From positions 54,288 to 118,287 of IMG/VR virus record IMGVR_UViG_3300033146_002242: a stretch of 64,000 nucleotides of DNA; one strand, 5' to 3'. Source of the stretch: a virus. A model generated the notes under the pieces. The model had not been told where the DNA came from. It searched no databases and was given only the letters and a program-made list of their open reading frames with translations. Numbering within the stretch: position 1 is the first letter of the stretch; each line of letters begins with the position of its first letter. Of the stretch, positions 4,490 through 55,127 are shown in pieces. The translations under genes were made by a program, and so were the position numbers.

Positions 4490-4540
4490 TTTATTTTGTC
4501 GAGAGTGGATTAATTTAATTTCCACTCTCGACAAAATAAA
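4490..4540 (+). terminator. 20-bp perfect hairpin, probable terminator
   Basis: Bases 4490-4509 pair perfectly with 4521-4540 across an 11-base loop. The arm ends are A/T-rich, giving a T-rich tract on both strands, so it could stop transcription in either direction. It separates the 2026-4488 block from the small genes that follow. Confidence 0.7.
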
Positions 4541-7569: not shown

Positions 7570-7743
7570 ATGATAAATACAATTTTATTAGTAATATCTA
7601 TAATTGGGTTATTGGTATTAATAGTGTTGGGTATTTTATTTATAATCGAGATAAATAAAATATTTAATCGAGGTATATCAAATGAAACAATCGAAAAAAT
7701 ATTAGATAGAAAACCAATTTTTTGGATACCTCCATTTAATTAA
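7570..7743 (+). CDS. small membrane protein, 57 aa
   Basis: AAAAAGGATTAAT precedes the ATG. Residues 4-27 form one strongly hydrophobic segment, followed by a charged cytoplasmic-type tail ending IFWIPPFN. It lies between tRNA-Ser and tRNA-Pro. Function unknown. Confidence 0.55.
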   Translation: MINTILLVISIIGLLVLIVLGILFIIEINKIFNRGISNETIEKILDRKPIFWIPPFN

Positions 7744-7747
7744 AAAA

Positions 7748-7776
7748 TTTACATTTGCATATTAAGTAAATATGAC
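7748..7776 (+). promoter_or_regulatory. TTTACA palindromic element 1
   Basis: TTTACA, 17 bases, then TATGAC, with an inverted repeat CATATT/AATATG (7758-7763/7769-7774). It lies about 30 bases upstream of tRNA-Pro. Similar elements occur at 7902, 8005, 8296, 10244 and 12050, so it is a candidate promoter or operator. Confidence 0.35.
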
Positions 7777-7807
7777 GATTTATACTTTTTATTTATAAAT
7801 TTAATGT

Positions 7808-7881
7808 GTGGGTGTGGCCTAGTCTGGTAAGGCACCTGATTTGGGATCAGGAAATCGGAGGTTCAAATCCTCTCACCCGCA
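7808..7881 (+). tRNA. tRNA-Pro(UGG)
   Basis: Acceptor GTGGGTG pairs with CACCCGC with one G-U pair. The anticodon stem CCTGA/TCAGG has loop TTTGGGA (anticodon TGG). T arm GGAGG/CCTCT, discriminator A7881, CCA not encoded. It reads CCA. Confidence 0.93.
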
Positions 7882-7901
7882 TCAATTTTGTAATTTTTAA
7901 A

Positions 7902-7930
7902 TTTGCACTATGAACAATAGTGACAAATAG
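7902..7930 (+). promoter_or_regulatory. TTTGCA palindromic element 2
   Basis: TTTGCA at 7902-7907 is followed by the dyad CACTAT/ATAGTG (7906-7911/7917-7922). It lies directly upstream of a micro-ORF at 7944 and resembles the other short palindromes here. Confidence 0.3.
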
Positions 7931-7943
7931 CAGAGGATTGTAA

Positions 7944-8021
7944 ATGAGGAGATACAGATTGATATATATTATCATTAGTATATATTCCATAATAATTTAT
8001 AAATATTACACATTATACTAA
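7944..8021 (+). CDS. possible 25-aa hydrophobic micro-peptide
   Basis: AGAGGATTG lies at the right distance from the ATG. The product would be nearly all Ile, Tyr and Leu, a single membrane segment. Its stop overlaps an ATG at 8021 that opens a nine-residue frame ending in TGA across the ATG of the gene at 8047. Such a chain could be a leader controlling 8047, or a chance effect of AT-rich sequence. Confidence 0.3.
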   Translation: MRRYRLIYIIISIYSIIIYKYYTLY

Positions 8022-8025
8022 TGTG
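8005..8025 (+). promoter_or_regulatory. ATTACA palindromic element 3
   Basis: ATTACA followed by CACATTA/TAATGTG (8009-8015/8019-8025), a perfect 7-bp dyad. It overlaps the end of the micro-ORF and lies about 20 bases before the start at 8047. Confidence 0.35.
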
Positions 8026-8046
8026 GCGGCTGGCGTTGGATTTAAT

Positions 8047-8283
8047 ATGATTATATATCGATGTGATAGATGTAATAAAAAAATGGATGAAGATGAGAAT
8101 CGTAGAATTGAAGGATTTAATAAATTTTCATCTAATGATATTATGCATTTTACAATTTCAATAAAGCCAGATAATAAACATTTTTGTCATGATTGTATCA
8201 GGCTTATGGTAATCAATGCATTAGAAGATCCCAACAATAATATATTATATGGGTGTAATACAAAATATATTAGTAATAAATAA
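8047..8283 (+). CDS. hypothetical zinc-ribbon-like protein, 78 aa
   Basis: The ATG at 8047 is preferred over a GTG at 8023 because it gives the natural N terminus MIIYRCDRCNKKM. Two cysteine pairs (CDRC and, 40 residues on, CHDC) suggest a zinc-binding treble-clef or ribbon. A comparable protein lies at 24435. It is the gene immediately upstream of the Cas12m-like effector but has its own upstream palindrome. Confidence 0.6.
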   Translation: MIIYRCDRCNKKMDEDENRRIEGFNKFSSNDIMHFTISIKPDNKHFCHDCIRLMVINALEDPNNNILYGCNTKYISNK

Positions 8284-8295
8284 ATTTATTTATGC

Positions 8296-8324
8296 ATTAC
8301 ACATTTTAAATGTGACAATATAAT
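8296..8324 (+). promoter_or_regulatory. promoter with embedded palindrome upstream of the Cas12m-like gene
   Basis: ATTACA at 8296-8301, exactly 17 bases, then a consensus TATAAT at 8319-8324. The spacer holds the dyad CACATTT/AAATGTG (8300-8306/8308-8314). The effector starts 39 bases after the -10, preceded by AAAGGAG. This is the best promoter match in the region, and the dyad could be an operator. Confidence 0.6.
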
Positions 8325-8362
8325 ATTGTATTATTTTTTAAAAAAAGTGAAAGGAGCTTTGT

Positions 8363-10117
8363 ATGAAGAAAGTTGTTGTGAGAAAATATAGATGTTGGGA
8401 GCCTTTGAATATGGGGCAGGATGTAATTACCCAGTTGTGGTTGCAAAATCAAATGTGGAATAAATTAGTAGAGATGGAACAAAATTTATATAAGAAGTAT
8501 AGAGAAGTTATGTCTACTGATACAGCAGTAGCTGAAATTGAAGAAAAATTAACTCAAAATGATACTGCTATTAAAGCATATATGGAAGAAAGAAATGAAA
8601 TAAGGAAAAAACTTAAAAAGAAGAAATGTGCTGAAACAGCATATTTTGATGAACAAATTAAAGAATTATCAGCAGAATCAAAAGAGCTTCGTAAGATAGC
8701 TCGGGAAAAAAGAAAAGAAGCAAAAGAAAAAGTTAAACCTTTACTTGATGAAATCAATCAAGAAAGAAAGGAAAGAAGAAAAAAAATATATCAAAATTCG
8801 GGGTTGTTTTGGGGTAATTATAACAGAGTCATGGCATCATTTGATATCGCTGTATCAAAATCGATGAAAACTGGCAGCACTTTACGTTTTCATCGATTTG
8901 ATGGAACTGGAATTTTTAAAAATTTCTTGTCCCCCGGCCGAACAAATGATGACATGTTAAATGGAAAGTTAAGTTACTTACATTTACAGGACATTCCTGC
9001 TGAGTCATTTAATGATTATATCGGTAGAAATAATCCATGTAAAATGGTTCTCGGTAGTCGTAGAGAAAGATCACGAAAATATGGGCTTCTCAAATTCACG
9101 ATTTATCGAGGAAAAGATGAAGAAGGAAATAGAATAAATAGAATGTTAGAAATGCCAGTGCTGCTTCACCGTCCATTGCCAGATGATGAAGATTTATTAA
9201 TTAAAGAAGCCGTTGTACGGCGGGAGTGTGTATCACCCGGTGAATATAGATGGTTTTTTATATTAACATATGTTGGTGGTGAATTTCAGCCAGTTCAACA
9301 TGTTAATACTGGTAGTGTTGCTGGTATTAACATGGGTTGGAAAACTGTCAATAATAATACATTGCGAATTGCTACTTTGGTGTCGGATAAAGAAACAGTA
9401 CATTTCATTCTACCAGAAAAAATTATGAAAACATATGATTATTTAAATCAATTAAAATCGGAAGTCGATAGCATGATTAACCATGCTATTGCTAGAATAA
9501 AAGAGATTATGAAAGATGATGATGAACTTCCTGAATCAATGGGAGTTTATTTAACCAGAATAACAAAGGCCAAACGGCCGCGATATGATTTATTAGAGAA
9601 AATGATGTGGGTATGGGATAAAGAATTGTCATATAAACCAGAAGAATTTTCTGAGGCAAAGGCTCATTTTGATTATCTTAATCGTGTTTTATCTGAGATG
9701 AATAATTTGAGAGATAAAGTCCGTGGACACCGGTTAGATTTATATCGGTGTTGGACAAAAATGATTACTCAAAAATATGAAACAATTATTGTTGATAAAT
9801 TAAATTTGGCGCAACTAAGTAAATTGGAGGCCGATGATGGCACTCCCACCAATAACTTACCAGAAGCAGCTCGTAAAAATCGAGTCATTGCATCGGTAGG
9901 TATTTTTAAAGAATGGCTTGATAAACAGGCTTTGAAAGTGGGGTCTGTAATTATTAAGAAATCAATTAAATCATCCACAATCTGCTCAGATTGTGGCGGT
10001 AAATTGATTAGAAAAGACAGTATCATATGGGCGTGCGAAAATTGTGGTAGCGTGTTTGACCAAGATGTTAACGCGGCTACTAACTTGATACGGTCGTATC
10101 AAGAAGAAGCAGCGTGA
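8363..10117 (+). CDS. Cas12m-like (type V-M) RNA-guided effector with degenerate RuvC, 584 aa
   Basis: The protein has the layout of the compact Cas12/TnpB superfamily. A long charged coiled-coil helix fills about residues 50-150. RFDGTG (178-183) and HRPLP (about 269-273) are motifs I associate with Cas12m (formerly V-U1/C2c10). RuvC-I reads GINMGW with Asn323 where Asp is expected. RuvC-II reads IIVDKLNL with Asp478 in place of Glu. A zinc ribbon follows (C541, C544, C558, C561), and RuvC-III reads DQDVNAATN (D566/D568). Cas12m binds DNA under crRNA guidance and silences without cutting; the changes here fit that. No cas1/cas2 or array is visible, so the guide source is unknown. Local GC is higher than in neighbouring genes, hinting at transfer. 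The alternative is a nuclease-dead TnpB-type repressor. Confidence 0.8.
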   Translation: MKKVVVRKYRCWEPLNMGQDVITQLWLQNQMWNKLVEMEQNLYKKYREVMSTDTAVAEIEEKLTQNDTAIKAYMEERNEIRKKLKKKKCAETAYFDEQIKELSAESKELRKIAREKRKEAKEKVKPLLDEINQERKERRKKIYQNSGLFWGNYNRVMASFDIAVSKSMKTGSTLRFHRFDGTGIFKNFLSPGRTNDDMLNGKLSYLHLQDIPAESFNDYIGRNNPCKMVLGSRRERSRKYGLLKFTIYRGKDEEGNRINRMLEMPVLLHRPLPDDEDLLIKEAVVRRECVSPGEYRWFFILTYVGGEFQPVQHVNTGSVAGINMGWKTVNNNTLRIATLVSDKETVHFILPEKIMKTYDYLNQLKSEVDSMINHAIARIKEIMKDDDELPESMGVYLTRITKAKRPRYDLLEKMMWVWDKELSYKPEEFSEAKAHFDYLNRVLSEMNNLRDKVRGHRLDLYRCWTKMITQKYETIIVDKLNLAQLSKLEADDGTPTNNLPEAARKNRVIASVGIFKEWLDKQALKVGSVIIKKSIKSSTICSDCGGKLIRKDSIIWACENCGSVFDQDVNAATNLIRSYQEEAA

Positions 10118-10121
10118 ATAT

Positions 10122-10166
10122 ATTCCCTGACATGAGAATATTTCAAAAATTCTCATGTCAGGGAAT
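10122..10166 (+). terminator. 18-bp perfect hairpin after the effector gene
   Basis: Bases 10122-10139 pair perfectly with 10149-10166 over a 9-base loop, with TTTTT starting three bases later. It lies five bases after the effector stop codon. The simplest reading is a terminator; a structured 3' RNA serving the effector is an untested alternative. Confidence 0.6.
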
Positions 10167-10243
10167 CATTTTTACACGGTAAATACATACAAATCGTGGC
10201 AACTTATCAGGTCAAATATTATTATAATATTTGAATTTTTGAA

Positions 10244-10272
10244 TTTACACATTTAATTAAATGTGATATGTC
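10244..10272 (+). promoter_or_regulatory. TTTACA palindromic element 5
   Basis: TTTACA, 17 bases, then TATGTC. The 18-base segment 10248-10265 is a perfect palindrome. It lies just ahead of the gene at 10289; the distance is short for a promoter, so an operator role is equally likely. A second dyad (CAAATATT/AATATTTG) lies at 10213-10233. Confidence 0.4.
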
Positions 10273-10288
10273 CTGGGAAGTCAATTAT

Positions 10289-10603
10289 ATGGAAACTTGT
10301 AATAAAGAATGTGATTTATACCCCATGACAATGGGGTGCATAGATTGTAAACATTATGATAATGATTTAGCTGCAAAAAATACTATTCAAAAATTTATAG
10401 ATTCATATAAAGGTGAAATAAATGGTATTCATATGATTATTGCAGCATGTGATTATATGGAATGGAGTTTAGCAATCCCAAAAGAAGAACATATAAATGA
10501 AAATGATAATATAAAAGGTTTGATTATTGGAGAAGAAAATTACGTATCATCTATTTTAGATAAAATAGATGGTGTTAAATTTAACCCAACAAATAAAAAT
10601 TAA
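10289..10603 (+). CDS. hypothetical Cys-rich protein, 104 aa, possibly frameshifted
   Basis: The ATG at 10289 has GGGAAG upstream; an in-frame ATG at 10268 lies inside the palindromic element. The N-terminal part carries CNKECDLYPMTMGCIDC, a likely zinc site of a kind common in small phage proteins. The frame ends in an A-rich tract. An open frame without its own start continues at once (10597-10764), so the true protein may be longer. Confidence 0.55.
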   Translation: METCNKECDLYPMTMGCIDCKHYDNDLAAKNTIQKFIDSYKGEINGIHMIIAACDYMEWSLAIPKEEHINENDNIKGLIIGEENYVSSILDKIDGVKFNPTNKN

Positions 10604-10764
10604 ATCTAAAAAATCCTATATCAGAAAAAACATTTTTAATAGGTAAAATATGTGGAATTAAAAAACCTGTTATAACAGGTGAATCATTTATTTTAATGAT
10701 TGAACATAAATCACATAAATCAGTTGTGTGGAATATTCCAGCAACTGATGTTGAATTAATATAA
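10597..10764 (+). pseudogene. start-less open frame continuing 10289-10603
   Basis: The frame encodes a protein-like sequence (NPISEKTFLIGKICG and, later, SVVWNIPATDVEL) but has no start codon before it. Reading AAAAA at 10595-10599 as six A, or a -1 slip there, would join it to the preceding gene. Sequencing indel, real mutation and programmed slippage cannot be told apart here. Confidence 0.4.
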
Positions 10765-10769
10765 TTATT

Positions 10770-10857
10770 GTCCAATATAAAATTGGGACCATACATACAG
10801 CAGCTATTATAACAATATAATCATTTTATTATAAATTATCCAATATTATAATTGGGT
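10770..10857 (+). repeat. two TCCAAT...ATTGGG hairpins, non-coding
   Basis: TCCAAT ATAAA ATTGGG at 10771-10787 recurs as TCCAAT ATTATA ATTGGG at 10839-10856. Otherwise 10765-10883 holds no gene. The units resemble the other short palindromes of this region and lead up to tRNA-Gln. Confidence 0.4.
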
Positions 10858-10883
10858 CAACGATACAAATAACATTTATTAAA

Positions 10884-10957
10884 TGGGGTGTCGTTCAATG
10901 GTAGGACAACAGCCTTTGGAGCTGTTTATTGGGGTTCGAATCCCTACACCCCAGCCA
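10884..10957 (+). tRNA. tRNA-Gln(UUG)
   Basis: Acceptor TGGGGTG pairs with CACCCCA. Anticodon stem ACAGC/GCTGT with loop CTTTGGA (anticodon TTG). The T arm has loop TTCGAAT. Discriminator G10954 and an encoded CCA (10955-10957). It reads CAA. Confidence 0.94.
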
Positions 10958-11027
10958 TTTGATATTTACTCTATATAATATATAATAATGGGAAATTAAT
11001 ATTTAAAATATTGATTAAATAATGGAA

Positions 11028-11043
11028 TTTACCAATTAAATTG
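11028..11043 (+). promoter_or_regulatory. TTTACC palindromic element
   Basis: TTTAC followed by CAATT A AATTG (11033-11043), the same layout as the elements at 7748, 10244 and 12050. It lies about 60 bases upstream of tRNA-Asn. Otherwise 10958-11100 is AT-rich with no gene. Confidence 0.3.
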
Positions 11044-11100
11044 TTTTAATAACAATTACTTTTTATATATATTGATAAATAAATAGGGTAATTTGTTTAA

Positions 11101-11176
11101 TCCTCGGTAGTTCAGTTGGCAGAACAAGTGGCTGTTAACCACTATGTCGCAGGTTCGAGTCCTGCCCGGGGAGCCA
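11101..11176 (+). tRNA. tRNA-Asn(GUU)
   Basis: Acceptor TCCTCGG pairs with CCGGGGA. Anticodon stem AGTGG/CCACT with loop CTGTTAA (anticodon GTT). T arm GCAGG/CCTGC. Discriminator G11173 and encoded CCA 11174-11176. Confidence 0.94.
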
Positions 11177-11197
11177 TTTTTTAGATGAAAGGAATAT

Positions 11198-11365
11198 ATG
11201 GATTTTATAACTTGGTGGTTTAATCATCATTATGTAGTATCTACTTTATTAACACCTTTTATGACACTAGCTTGGGTATTTTATAAAGGGCTAGTAATAA
11301 GAGGTATATTTACAGTTATTTGGATTATAATTGAGCTTATTATTATGACAGTCGGATCGTCATAG
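11198..11365 (+). CDS. small membrane protein, 55 aa
   Basis: GAAAGGAATAT precedes the ATG. The protein has two hydrophobic stretches (about residues 12-29 and 37-52) with an aromatic N terminus. It follows tRNA-Asn by 21 bases. Function unknown; it belongs with the other small membrane proteins of this accessory region. Confidence 0.5.
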   Translation: MDFITWWFNHHYVVSTLLTPFMTLAWVFYKGLVIRGIFTVIWIIIELIIMTVGSS

Positions 11366-11692
11366 GCGAATCACATCCGGTATTGGGGTAATTTCAAAAT
11401 TAAGAAACTCTCTGATATACGATGGAAAAAGAAACGGTGTAATTCCGTACCCGACTTTTAAAATCTCATCAACGGACACATCATTAGTATTTTCAGAATA
11501 ACAAATATTGATAAAAATTCGAAAACCCCGATATATGTAGAAGAATTTGAGTTTAGCAGGGATGAATGGAATAGTGAACCACCAGAATGCTTACAAAAAG
11601 CTATAGTTGCATGTAAAAGTAAAACACAGTGTTATCATTGCAGAACTGTGTATTATGCAGCTGAAAAAAAGGAGGATTGTGTTAATGCATGA
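11349..11692 (+). pseudogene. possible frameshifted gene without a start codon
   Basis: Two plus-strand frames abut: 11349-11501 and 11462-11692. The second ends CKSKTQCYHCRTVYYAAEKK..., a convincing Cys-containing tail whose TGA overlaps the start of the next gene. One extra T in the run near 11490 would join them. No ATG, GTG or TTG with a ribosome binding site heads either frame. It may be a decayed gene, a sequence error or a gene with an unusual start. Confidence 0.35.
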
Positions 11693-11945
11693 TTCACATG
11701 AGATTTATGAATTTATATATAATGGATTTTGTGTTGAGCGATTGAATAAAAATAAAACAGTATATACAGCTAAATTTAAAAAATGGACCCGTGATCCGGG
11801 TATTGGAATTTTTGAATGTTCTGATGGAAAAAATCGGTATATTCCAACCTGTGCAATAAAAGATTTTGATACACTACATATACATCCTAAACAAGATGTA
11901 AACGTAAAAGAAAAACTTTTGATGTGCAACTCTGCTACATCATAA
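11685..11945 (+). CDS. hypothetical protein, 86 aa
   Basis: The start at 11685 follows AAAGGAGGATTGTGTTA, a strong site; the frame is open further upstream but lacks one. The protein is soluble, with a predicted beta-rich middle (TAKFKKWTRDPGIGIFEC). No family is recognised. It ends 10 bases before the next tRNA. Confidence 0.65.
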   Translation: MHDSHEIYEFIYNGFCVERLNKNKTVYTAKFKKWTRDPGIGIFECSDGKNRYIPTCAIKDFDTLHIHPKQDVNVKEKLLMCNSATS

Positions 11946-11954
11946 GTGAAATTA

Positions 11955-12031
11955 GGGCCCTTAGCTCAGTTGGTTAGAGCTCCCGGCTCATAACCGGGCG
12001 GTCCGGGGTTCGAATCCCTGAGGGCCCACCA
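11955..12031 (+). tRNA. tRNA with CAU anticodon (Met or Ile2)
   Basis: Acceptor GGGCCCT pairs with AGGGCCC. Anticodon stem CCCGG/CCGGG with loop CTCATAA. Discriminator A12028 and encoded CCA. The acceptor and anticodon arm look more like bacterial tRNA-Ile(CAU), which after lysidine modification reads AUA, than like elongator Met. AUA is very frequent in these genes. Identity cannot be settled by eye. Confidence 0.9.
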
Positions 12032-12049
12032 TGTAAAAAATTAGTTAAA

Positions 12050-12072
12050 TTTACGCAATACAATGTTGCGGC
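12050..12072 (+). promoter_or_regulatory. TTTACG palindromic element 6
   Basis: TTTACG followed by the dyad CGCAA/TTGCG (12054-12058/12066-12070). It lies about 85 bases upstream of the gene at 12158. It is GC-richer than the other elements but has the same layout. Confidence 0.3.
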
Positions 12073-52694: not shown

Positions 52695-55127
52695 TTGAAA
52701 TATATTAATTTTGTGTCAGTCAAATTTGAAAATTATTGTAATTATATAGATCCAATGGAATTTCAATTTGAAAATGGTAAAATAACATTGATTACTGGGC
52801 CAAATGGAATTGGTAAATCAACTATATTTGGGGCAATTCCATTTGCTTTATATGGTGTGACCCCAACAGGGCAAAGACCAGATGATGTATTGAATAATAA
52901 AACACAAAAAAATTGTAGAGTTGATTGTTTATTTGAAATAGATAATGACAAATATATGGTTAGTAGAACAGTGAAATATAAAAATGTTGGTTCTACAGCT
53001 TTTGTTTATAAAAAAGGAATTAAAGAACCTCTTGCAAAAGGGTATAGAGAAGTAACTAATTTTATTGAAAATTTATTGATTCCTAAAGATTTATTTCTTA
53101 ATACAGTATTGTTTGGACAAAAAGTAAAAACGTTTTTTACAGATTTACCAGATTCTAAACAAAAAGAAATTTTTAGAAAAATATTACAGCTTGATAATTA
53201 TGTAATGTATCAAAAGAATGTAAATTCTATAATGGATGATTTAAAAATTGAATTAAATGAATTACAACATAACAAAGATATAATTCTTTCTAAAATTGAT
53301 GTTATTAAGATTGATACTATTGATACTATAGAAGGAAAAATCAAACATAAATTAACTGAAATTGAGAATTTGAAATGGAATAACAATTTAATTAAAAAAG
53401 ATTTAGAAGAAGAAAAAGAAAAATTAATAAATTTAAAAGAATCTGAGATAAAACTAGAATTTGATAATTTAACGAATTTAATTAATTCTTGTAATAATCA
53501 ATTAGATAATTTGAATAGTTTATTAGATTCTAAAAAAAATGAACTTGAAAATGAAAAAAAATTAAAAATTTCTGAACACAAAGAAAAGATATTACAGATT
53601 GAGAAAACACAAAATGATTTAAAAAATAATATTATAAAAAAATTATCAAAAGCTGCTGAATCTAAAATTGAAATTAATCAACAAAAATTAGAAGATTTGA
53701 GAGAAAAATATCTTGAAGAAAAAAATATTATTGTTGATAATTATAATGAACAAATAAAAAAAATAAAAGATGAATTTGCACAAAAAATTGAATCTAATAA
53801 TTTTAAAATAAATGATGCCACGAATTTTATTAATGAAATAAATGTAAACCAATCAAAACTATCAACTGTTATTGATTTTGCTTCAACAAAAATAAAAGAA
53901 TATAAAAATGCAATTGATAATAAACAATCTATTTGTCCTACTTGTTTTCAGCAATGGGATGATGTTTCACATATACAAAAATTAATTGATGAACAAAATG
54001 AAATTATAATTGAAAAAACAGCTGAACTGAATAAACTATTAGATGATAAAAAACATTATCAAGAAATCATTAATCAATTAACTTCTGAAAACAATGAATA
54101 TAATAAAAATTTAGATTTGTTGATATCTGAATTAGAAGATAAATTTAATAAAGAAAAAGAAAAATTTGATTTATCTTTTAAAGAAAAGGCTGAATCAATC
54201 AAAATTTTAATTTCAGAAATTAAAGATCAATTAAAACAAGAAATTGAAAATATAGAGAAAGAATTTTCTGGTAAAATGTCTGCATTAAATGAAGATTTAG
54301 TTAGAATTGTTGATGAAATTACAATAGCACATCAAATTAATTTACAAGATGTTTTGGAAAAATTTGGTGAAAAAAGAAATAAAATTTTACTTGATATTAA
54401 AGATTATAAAGAAAAATTAAGTAATTTAAAATTAATATTAAGTCAAATAGAAGCGGTTAAAAATAAAATAACTACCTTTGAAAATGATATAGAAAAAAAT
54501 GAATATAGTATTAATGATATTAAAAAACAAATTGAGGAACATAAACAAGAAATAAATAATTGTGTGGTTAAAATAGAAAGTTTATATAATGAAATAGGGG
54601 AACATATTAATAGAATTGATGCTATTAAAGAAAATATTAAAATATGTAATTTCTGGAAGGTTGGATTTTCTTCATCAGGTATACCTTCTATGTTAATTGA
54701 TGAATCAATTCCTTTTATGAATGAAAGAATAGGAAAATATTTAGAACAGATGTCACATGGTAGATATCATGTGACATTTGATACATTAAAAGAAACAAAG
54801 AAAGGTGAATTTAGGGATAAAATATCAATTCATGTATATGACTCTGTTACTCATTCTAATTCCAGAGTTAATTTTTCTGGTGGTCAAATTAGATTAGTTG
54901 ATATAGCTACTATATTAACTTTATCTGATTTACAAGAAGATATTCACAAATTTAAAATTAATATATCATTATTTGATGAAATTTTCGATGCTCTTGATGA
55001 CCAGAATACTGTAAATGTTTCACATTTACTTAGAAAAGTTTTAATAAAAGACAAAGCTATTTGTTTAATTACGCATCGTTTAATTGACCAAATAGAAGCA
55101 GATAACATTTATGCATTAGAAAGTTAA
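52695..55127 (+). CDS. SbcC/gp46-like recombination ATPase, 810 aa
   Basis: TTG start, set by AAAGGAGAG ten bases upstream; no nearby ATG exists. Walker A GPNGIGKST lies at about 35-43. Long coiled coils fill about 170-400 and 430-660, separated by a zinc-hook CPTC (about 415). FSGGQIRLVD (signature, about 727) and LFDEIFDALD (Walker B, about 759) follow. This is the Rad50 family. Partner of the nuclease at 51674. Confidence 0.93.
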   Translation: MKYINFVSVKFENYCNYIDPMEFQFENGKITLITGPNGIGKSTIFGAIPFALYGVTPTGQRPDDVLNNKTQKNCRVDCLFEIDNDKYMVSRTVKYKNVGSTAFVYKKGIKEPLAKGYREVTNFIENLLIPKDLFLNTVLFGQKVKTFFTDLPDSKQKEIFRKILQLDNYVMYQKNVNSIMDDLKIELNELQHNKDIILSKIDVIKIDTIDTIEGKIKHKLTEIENLKWNNNLIKKDLEEEKEKLINLKESEIKLEFDNLTNLINSCNNQLDNLNSLLDSKKNELENEKKLKISEHKEKILQIEKTQNDLKNNIIKKLSKAAESKIEINQQKLEDLREKYLEEKNIIVDNYNEQIKKIKDEFAQKIESNNFKINDATNFINEINVNQSKLSTVIDFASTKIKEYKNAIDNKQSICPTCFQQWDDVSHIQKLIDEQNEIIIEKTAELNKLLDDKKHYQEIINQLTSENNEYNKNLDLLISELEDKFNKEKEKFDLSFKEKAESIKILISEIKDQLKQEIENIEKEFSGKMSALNEDLVRIVDEITIAHQINLQDVLEKFGEKRNKILLDIKDYKEKLSNLKLILSQIEAVKNKITTFENDIEKNEYSINDIKKQIEEHKQEINNCVVKIESLYNEIGEHINRIDAIKENIKICNFWKVGFSSSGIPSMLIDESIPFMNERIGKYLEQMSHGRYHVTFDTLKETKKGEFRDKISIHVYDSVTHSNSRVNFSGGQIRLVDIATILTLSDLQEDIHKFKINISLFDEIFDALDDQNTVNVSHLLRKVLIKDKAICLITHRLIDQIEADNIYALES

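Follow-up and report, generated by a model that had tools for sequence, protein, structure and literature searches.

A phage-borne Cas12m of the N-D-D lineage and a candidate family of hairpin guide scaffolds

Can a phage use a Cas12m protein with an altered nuclease site as an RNA-guided silencer and, if so, where do its guides come from? The question is raised by a gene in the virus record IMGVR_UViG_3300033146_002242 (118,287 bp), of which a stretch of 64,000 nucleotides (nt), positions 54288–118287, was analysed; this whole stretch is called the window. The gene, cas12m, is an open reading frame of 584 amino acids. An earlier note on this DNA had described its product as a phage-encoded, Cas12m-like effector with a disabled RuvC site and had proposed that it acts as an RNA-guided repressor. 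From sequence comparison and a predicted fold, we conclude that the protein is a Cas12m (type V-M, formerly V-U1) of the N-D-D lineage, and not a TnpB or a TldR. In the reading that we prefer, to which we give a probability of about 0.55, it would bind and silence its targets without cutting, with guides supplied by hairpin repeats of the phage itself and directed at genes of the host or of competitors.

A Cas12m protein with a non-canonical RuvC site

The open reading frame contains every motif quoted in the earlier note: RFDGTG at residue 178, HRPLP at 269, INMGW at 322, VDKLNL at 477 and DQDVNAATN at 566, with the CxxC pairs of a zinc ribbon at residues 541/544 and 558/561. The PADLOC profile Cas12u1 (V-U1) covers residues 13–581 at 3e-87, while TnpB models match at only about 1e-13 and there are weak matches to the transposase families PHROG 506 and guided_TnpB. 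By sequence, the matches in the PDB are to Cas12m 23vw (2.6e-49), UnCas12m4a (1.7e-27) and MmCas12m2 (4e-19). The AlphaFold model has a predicted local distance difference test score of 85, and its four best Foldseek matches are Cas12m2 and GoCas12m structures (1.7e-27, for Cas12m2 8hhl, to 4e-21), with Cas12f (2e-11) and TnpB (5e-10) ranked lower. A long REC2 coiled coil is predicted and the Cas12m alignment is full-length. The match to Cas12m is far beyond chance, in agreement with the earlier note, and an origin from TnpB or TldR is rejected on the profile and fold scores. A single-sequence scan for close relatives of the protein found none.

When the protein is aligned with relatives, Asn323, Asp478 and Asp566 occupy precisely the three catalytic columns of RuvC; alignment therefore does not bring back the acidic residues, and the best match is to Cas12m, not to TnpB. 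Judging by these columns, two of the three canonical RuvC residues are lost, as the earlier note had supposed. The same triad is present in four relatives, 34–39% identical to the phage protein, from Pelobacter propionicus pPRO1 (L006), Geobacteraceae (L021), a Deltaproteobacteria metagenome-assembled genome (L022) and the phage contig IMGVR_UViG_3300035661_000409 (L013). The tree places the phage protein as sister to this clade, whose Cas12m members are of plasmid, bacterial and phage origin (ultrafast bootstrap 98, approximate likelihood-ratio test 95). Described RuvC states of Cas12m include DED, HDD, NDD and others, and N-D-D variants are reported to bind target DNA with no cleavage of double-stranded DNA (PMC11013384). 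The phage protein also resembles MmCas12m2 (8hhl), GoCas12m (8pm4), 23vw and UnCas12m4a in its full-length sequence, predicted fold, zinc ribbon and non-canonical RuvC site, of which N-D-D is a described state, and in the conserved His269 and Arg270 of the WED domain. In MmCas12m2 the equivalent His-Arg pair reads the last repeat base, C(−1), stacks on the G(−23):A(−2) pair and is implicated in processing of the precursor of the CRISPR (clustered regularly interspaced short palindromic repeats) RNA, or crRNA (PMC10442227).

The record also encodes a portal protein, a major head protein, a DNA polymerase, a topoisomerase II and an RNA-polymerase-beta-like protein. The carrier of cas12m is a large tailed phage of bacteria, represented by what is probably a 118-kb fragment, which bears out the phage location given in the earlier note. 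Cas12m is also present in another phage record, Virus Rctr197k (KX853510), but that protein is only 22.9% identical (tblastn), has a D-E-D triad and its gene adjoins a long canonical array. Because phage-borne Cas12m proteins with arrays have already been deposited, the phage protein alone is a further member of a known family.

Hairpin units around cas12m and upstream of it

Where the phage departs from known Cas12m systems is in its repeats. From the arrays and single repeats of relatives we derived a V-M repeat model (R1); its 6-bp helix and pseudoknot are strongly backed by compensatory changes, and it recovers the known repeats of the relatives' loci mostly at 1e-7 to 1e-10. On the phage record it finds nothing significant (best E 0.27–0.8), that is, no canonical V-M repeat. 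A CRISPR-array scan of the record and a tandem-repeat finder run on the window gave no CRISPR array, and scans with V-M pseudoknot descriptors gave chance matches only. The N-D-D relatives, unlike the phage record, have canonical repeats: an array of four at L006, and a single repeat with one guide at L013, L021 and L022.

The record does contain about 16 covarying units, all on the plus strand, in which a hairpin of 6–7 bp is preceded by G or A and followed by A/G-C. The layout is an AT-rich leader, TTTG or ATTA, the helix (starting with C and ending with G in most), A or G, and a final base, which is C in most of the single units. Nine units (a1–a9) make up a degenerate array 9.3 kb upstream of cas12m, a little beyond the edge of the window (record positions 52,803–53,393; L005:12803–13393; window −1484 to −894). 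The array was detected only after a hairpin census, the array and tandem-repeat scans having missed it because its units are short and variable. Its consensus is aTATATGTTTG-CTCACTAAATAAGTGAG-A[C/T]; the units are spaced 56–92 nt apart and separated by unique spacers of about 20–57 nt. Within the array there is a duplicate of the first hairpin and the end of the preceding open reading frame. Seven single units (h1–h7) are scattered around cas12m, at window positions 7736–12072 (Table 1).

Of the hairpin models, R3 is the one relied on, R2 having its structure shifted by one column. Among 11 units of equal length all 66 pair cells are formed, with compensatory change in five of the six pairs, a result that none of 500 shuffles reached. 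Strong matches to the hairpin model all lie on the plus strand, in two clusters. The array units, UUUG-CUCACU...AGUGAG-A-C/U, have the same UG-CUC...GAG-A-C frame as V-M repeats, and two of them (UGCUC...GAGAC) are, in the whole record, the second- and third-best matches to the independent model R1. A function of the hairpins as promoter or operator was considered and rejected: there is no consistent −10 box, and the compensatory changes in the stem point to a structure rather than to a DNA site.

Table 1. Features of the cas12m region, in window coordinates. R2 and R3 are the hairpin models described in the text.
Feature	Position	Strand	Evidence
h1 hairpin, TTTG-CATATTAAGTAAATATG-AC, proposed dispersed guide scaffold	7736..7776	+	R3 42.6 bits, E 1.8e-5 (model-building sequence)
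h2 hairpin, TTTG-CACTATGAACAATAGTG-AC	7884..7924	+	R3 41.5 bits (model-building sequence)
h3 hairpin, ATTA-CACATTATACTAATGTG-GC	7987..8027	+	R3 36.4 bits (model-building sequence)
h4 hairpin, ATTA-CACATTTTAAATGTG-AC, just 5′ of cas12m	8277..8316	+	R2 36.6 bits (model-building sequence); R3 weaker, E 0.22
cas12m gene, 584 amino acids, N-D-D RuvC	8363..10117	+	Open reading frame, profiles, alignment, tree, fold
His269-Arg270, WED residues	9167..9172	+	Alignment; PMC10442227
Asn323, RuvC-I catalytic position (Asp in nuclease-type Cas12)	9329..9331	+	Alignment
Asp478, RuvC-II catalytic position (Glu in nuclease-type Cas12)	9794..9796	+	Alignment
CxxC-CxxC zinc ribbon, target nucleic-acid-binding domain	9983..10045	+	Pfam PF07282 5.4e-10; alignment
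Asp566, RuvC-III catalytic position	10058..10060	+	Alignment
Near-perfect 22-bp inverted repeat right after the cas12m stop codon, then a T run; probably a terminator	10122..10166	+	
h5 hairpin, just 3′ of cas12m	10226..10267	+	R3 E 0.032; outside the R3 building set
h7 hairpin, TTG-TCCAATATAAAATTGGG-AC	10749..10789	+	R3 E 0.037; fold; in no model's building set
h6 hairpin, TTTA-CGCAATACAATGTTGCG-GC	12032..12072	+	R3 37.7 bits (model-building sequence)

Possible sources of the guides

On these grounds the hairpin units are candidate guide scaffolds of the phage Cas12m, at odds that we place a little short of even. In the proposed mechanism, Cas12m loaded with a guide RNA would bind double-stranded DNA beside a T-rich protospacer-adjacent motif (PAM) and, leaving it uncut, obstruct transcription or replication. 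The guides would derive from the AT-rich hairpins, both those of the upstream array and the single units round the gene, the purine-flanked helix followed by A/G-C taking the place of G(−23)-helix-A(−2)-C(−1), the canonical terminus of the V-M repeat. The targets may be host genes or those of competing elements; repression of a surface receptor or another host gene is a concrete candidate because the single guides of relatives point at porins (see below). More tentatively, a nuclease-dead Cas12m with such an exploded guide set, about nine array units and seven scattered ones with a reshaped AT-rich repeat, may be a multi-target silencer and not a system of adaptive immunity. If so, the single-guide, porin-directed loci of relatives would be a parallel to it.

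Several observations weigh against the hairpins as guide scaffolds. Their loops are of 3–5 nt, compared with nine in V-M repeats, and they do not conserve the pseudoknot of those repeats. Only a minority of the array units (a1, a3 and a6 of the nine) end in C, and the array lies away from cas12m, whereas in nearly all relatives the two are neighbours. Under R1 no array unit is individually significant (E about 0.8), and the top match of that model in the record falls in a coding region. The significance of the hairpin model partly reflects choice, because the family was first noticed by eye. No convincing target of the phage spacers was found in the record, the fetched loci or the phage collection, nor did one phage guide find a target in 2.9 million viral contigs. 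In the same contigs, the hairpin repeat pattern gave nine lone matches and no second array. In favour of the hairpins, 22 related phages have neither an R3 match at E < 0.05 nor a Cas12m match, but this is weak evidence because these relatives, found through the major head protein, are distant (59–67% capsid identity). Of the repressor proposed in the earlier note, the phage location, the family and the non-canonical RuvC site stand; the record lacks a canonical V-M repeat, whether single or in an array, and no spacer target was identified.

It is possible, but on balance unlikely, that the protein is an ordinary V-M effector served by an array or single repeat on an unsequenced part of the phage genome, the hairpins being unrelated regulatory stem-loops. 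The record is probably incomplete because it measures 118 kb, against up to 312 kb for the records of the related phages (27–312 kb), and a canonical array could sit in the missing part. The hairpins also occupy intergenic gaps among tRNAs and ORFans, as is typical of stem-loops that flank morons, and mobile cassettes of promoters and stem-loops are known in T4-type phages. However, nearly all relatives with a repeat have it no more than about 600 nt from cas12m, and the hairpins have no consistent T run any more than a −10 box and were not found in related phages.

That the phage Cas12m works in trans, with crRNAs of a V-M system of the host or of a co-infecting element, we consider improbable. 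The intact His269 and Arg270, readers of the conserved repeat end, would fit such use, as would a record with no canonical repeat, but a compatible V-M host would be required and V-M is rare, with 16 loci in a scan of genome contigs by short patterns. Least probable by far is a domesticated, TldR-like TnpB guided by an omega-RNA-like transcript over the 3′ end of the gene: the functional logic is the same and there are the weak transposase-family matches, but the E-values favour Cas12m by tens of orders of magnitude in the sequence searches and by 17 orders in the fold search, the long REC2 coiled coil is predicted, the alignment to Cas12m is full-length, and a plain hairpin follows the stop codon.

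Our preferred reading, of an N-D-D Cas12m that silences with guides from the phage hairpins, has a likeness to TldR proteins, the TnpB-derived RNA-guided repressors of temperate phages (PMC13418256). The working model shares with them phage-borne, RNA-guided repression without cutting; it differs in that the protein is of another family and that there is no sign of an omega-RNA at the phage gene. The absence of a canonical V-M repeat combined with a covarying hairpin family would amount to a new guide layout, if the hairpins are bound by the protein.

The surroundings of the gene contain further elements. A scan for relatives of the neighbours of cas12m and of the hairpin array by short patterns found none among viral contigs. 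The window contains eight tRNAs, and an Rfam scan at gathering thresholds returned tRNAs only, weaker matches being due to chance. By eye, L005:14025–14385 resembles a tRNA-Leu gene split by a group I intron; it adjoins an open reading frame for an HNH endonuclease (L005:13485–14015; Pfam HNH_3, 1.2e-12). At window positions 4493–4537, a long inverted repeat, TTTTGTCGAGAGTGGA...TCCACTCTCGACAAAA, between two open reading frames is probably a terminator. The segment at 11352–11480, 3′ of cas12m and a tRNA-Asn, is compact, with a possible long-range pairing GTCGG...CCCGAC, and had no convincing match in Rfam.

Single guides in relatives and their putative porin targets

About half of the Cas12m loci examined have arrays, and most of those that lack one retain one V-M repeat with a lone guide after it. 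Ten draft genomes searched with R1, scoring the 150 best candidates per genome, contain exactly one repeat each. Solitary repeats with one guide were also seen at L007, L013, L021, L022, L026 and L032, which are plasmids, metagenome-assembled genomes and one phage contig. Cas12m has thus repeatedly kept a single repeat and guide in these relatives. A search for autoregulation of cas12m by the solitary guides found no match to the seed close to the promoter in these loci, and no PAM-flanked target of the L021 and L022 guides was found in their own genomes. At L023 the downstream array is accompanied by a further V-M repeat unit on the upstream side of cas12m (L023:4830–4866), which is followed by a different sequence and may be a regulatory crRNA-like unit.

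Seven array-less, single-repeat loci from Microvirga, Methylorubrum and Methylobacterium (L025, L029, L031, L033, L034, L035 and L036) point to a candidate target. The single guides of these Methylobacteriaceae start with TTCTAYATYCC or a variant, corresponding to the F-Y-I-P codons of the GAGFFYIPGTDTC motif of Porin_2 outer-membrane porins. The seed pattern has 30 genomic matches: all 16 in porins are preceded by a 5′ TTC or TTT, compared with one of the 14 outside porins. Because the codon before FYIP in the porin motif itself encodes F, the motif brings the PAM along. Five of the seven genomes contain a porin that matches the guide seed by 8–12 nt; the best porin match in Methylorubrum (L029) is only five nt, and no seed-matched porin was found for L031, one of five Methylobacterium loci. 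In all five of these, cas12m is divergent to a porin gene of its own, and this co-encoded neighbour has a guide match of only two nt, cut short by a synonymous difference at the third position of the guide.

From these sequences, single-guide Methylobacteriaceae Cas12m looks like an RNA-guided porin switch. Its logic would resemble that of TldR with flagellin (PMC13418256), reached here from a CRISPR effector; none of the papers searched names Cas12m together with porin. The porin-directed guides of relatives are more surprising than the phage hairpins. A porin-directed guide with an escaping co-encoded porin leads to a testable claim, namely that Cas12m, like TnpB, may have become a dedicated RNA-guided regulator of surface proteins.
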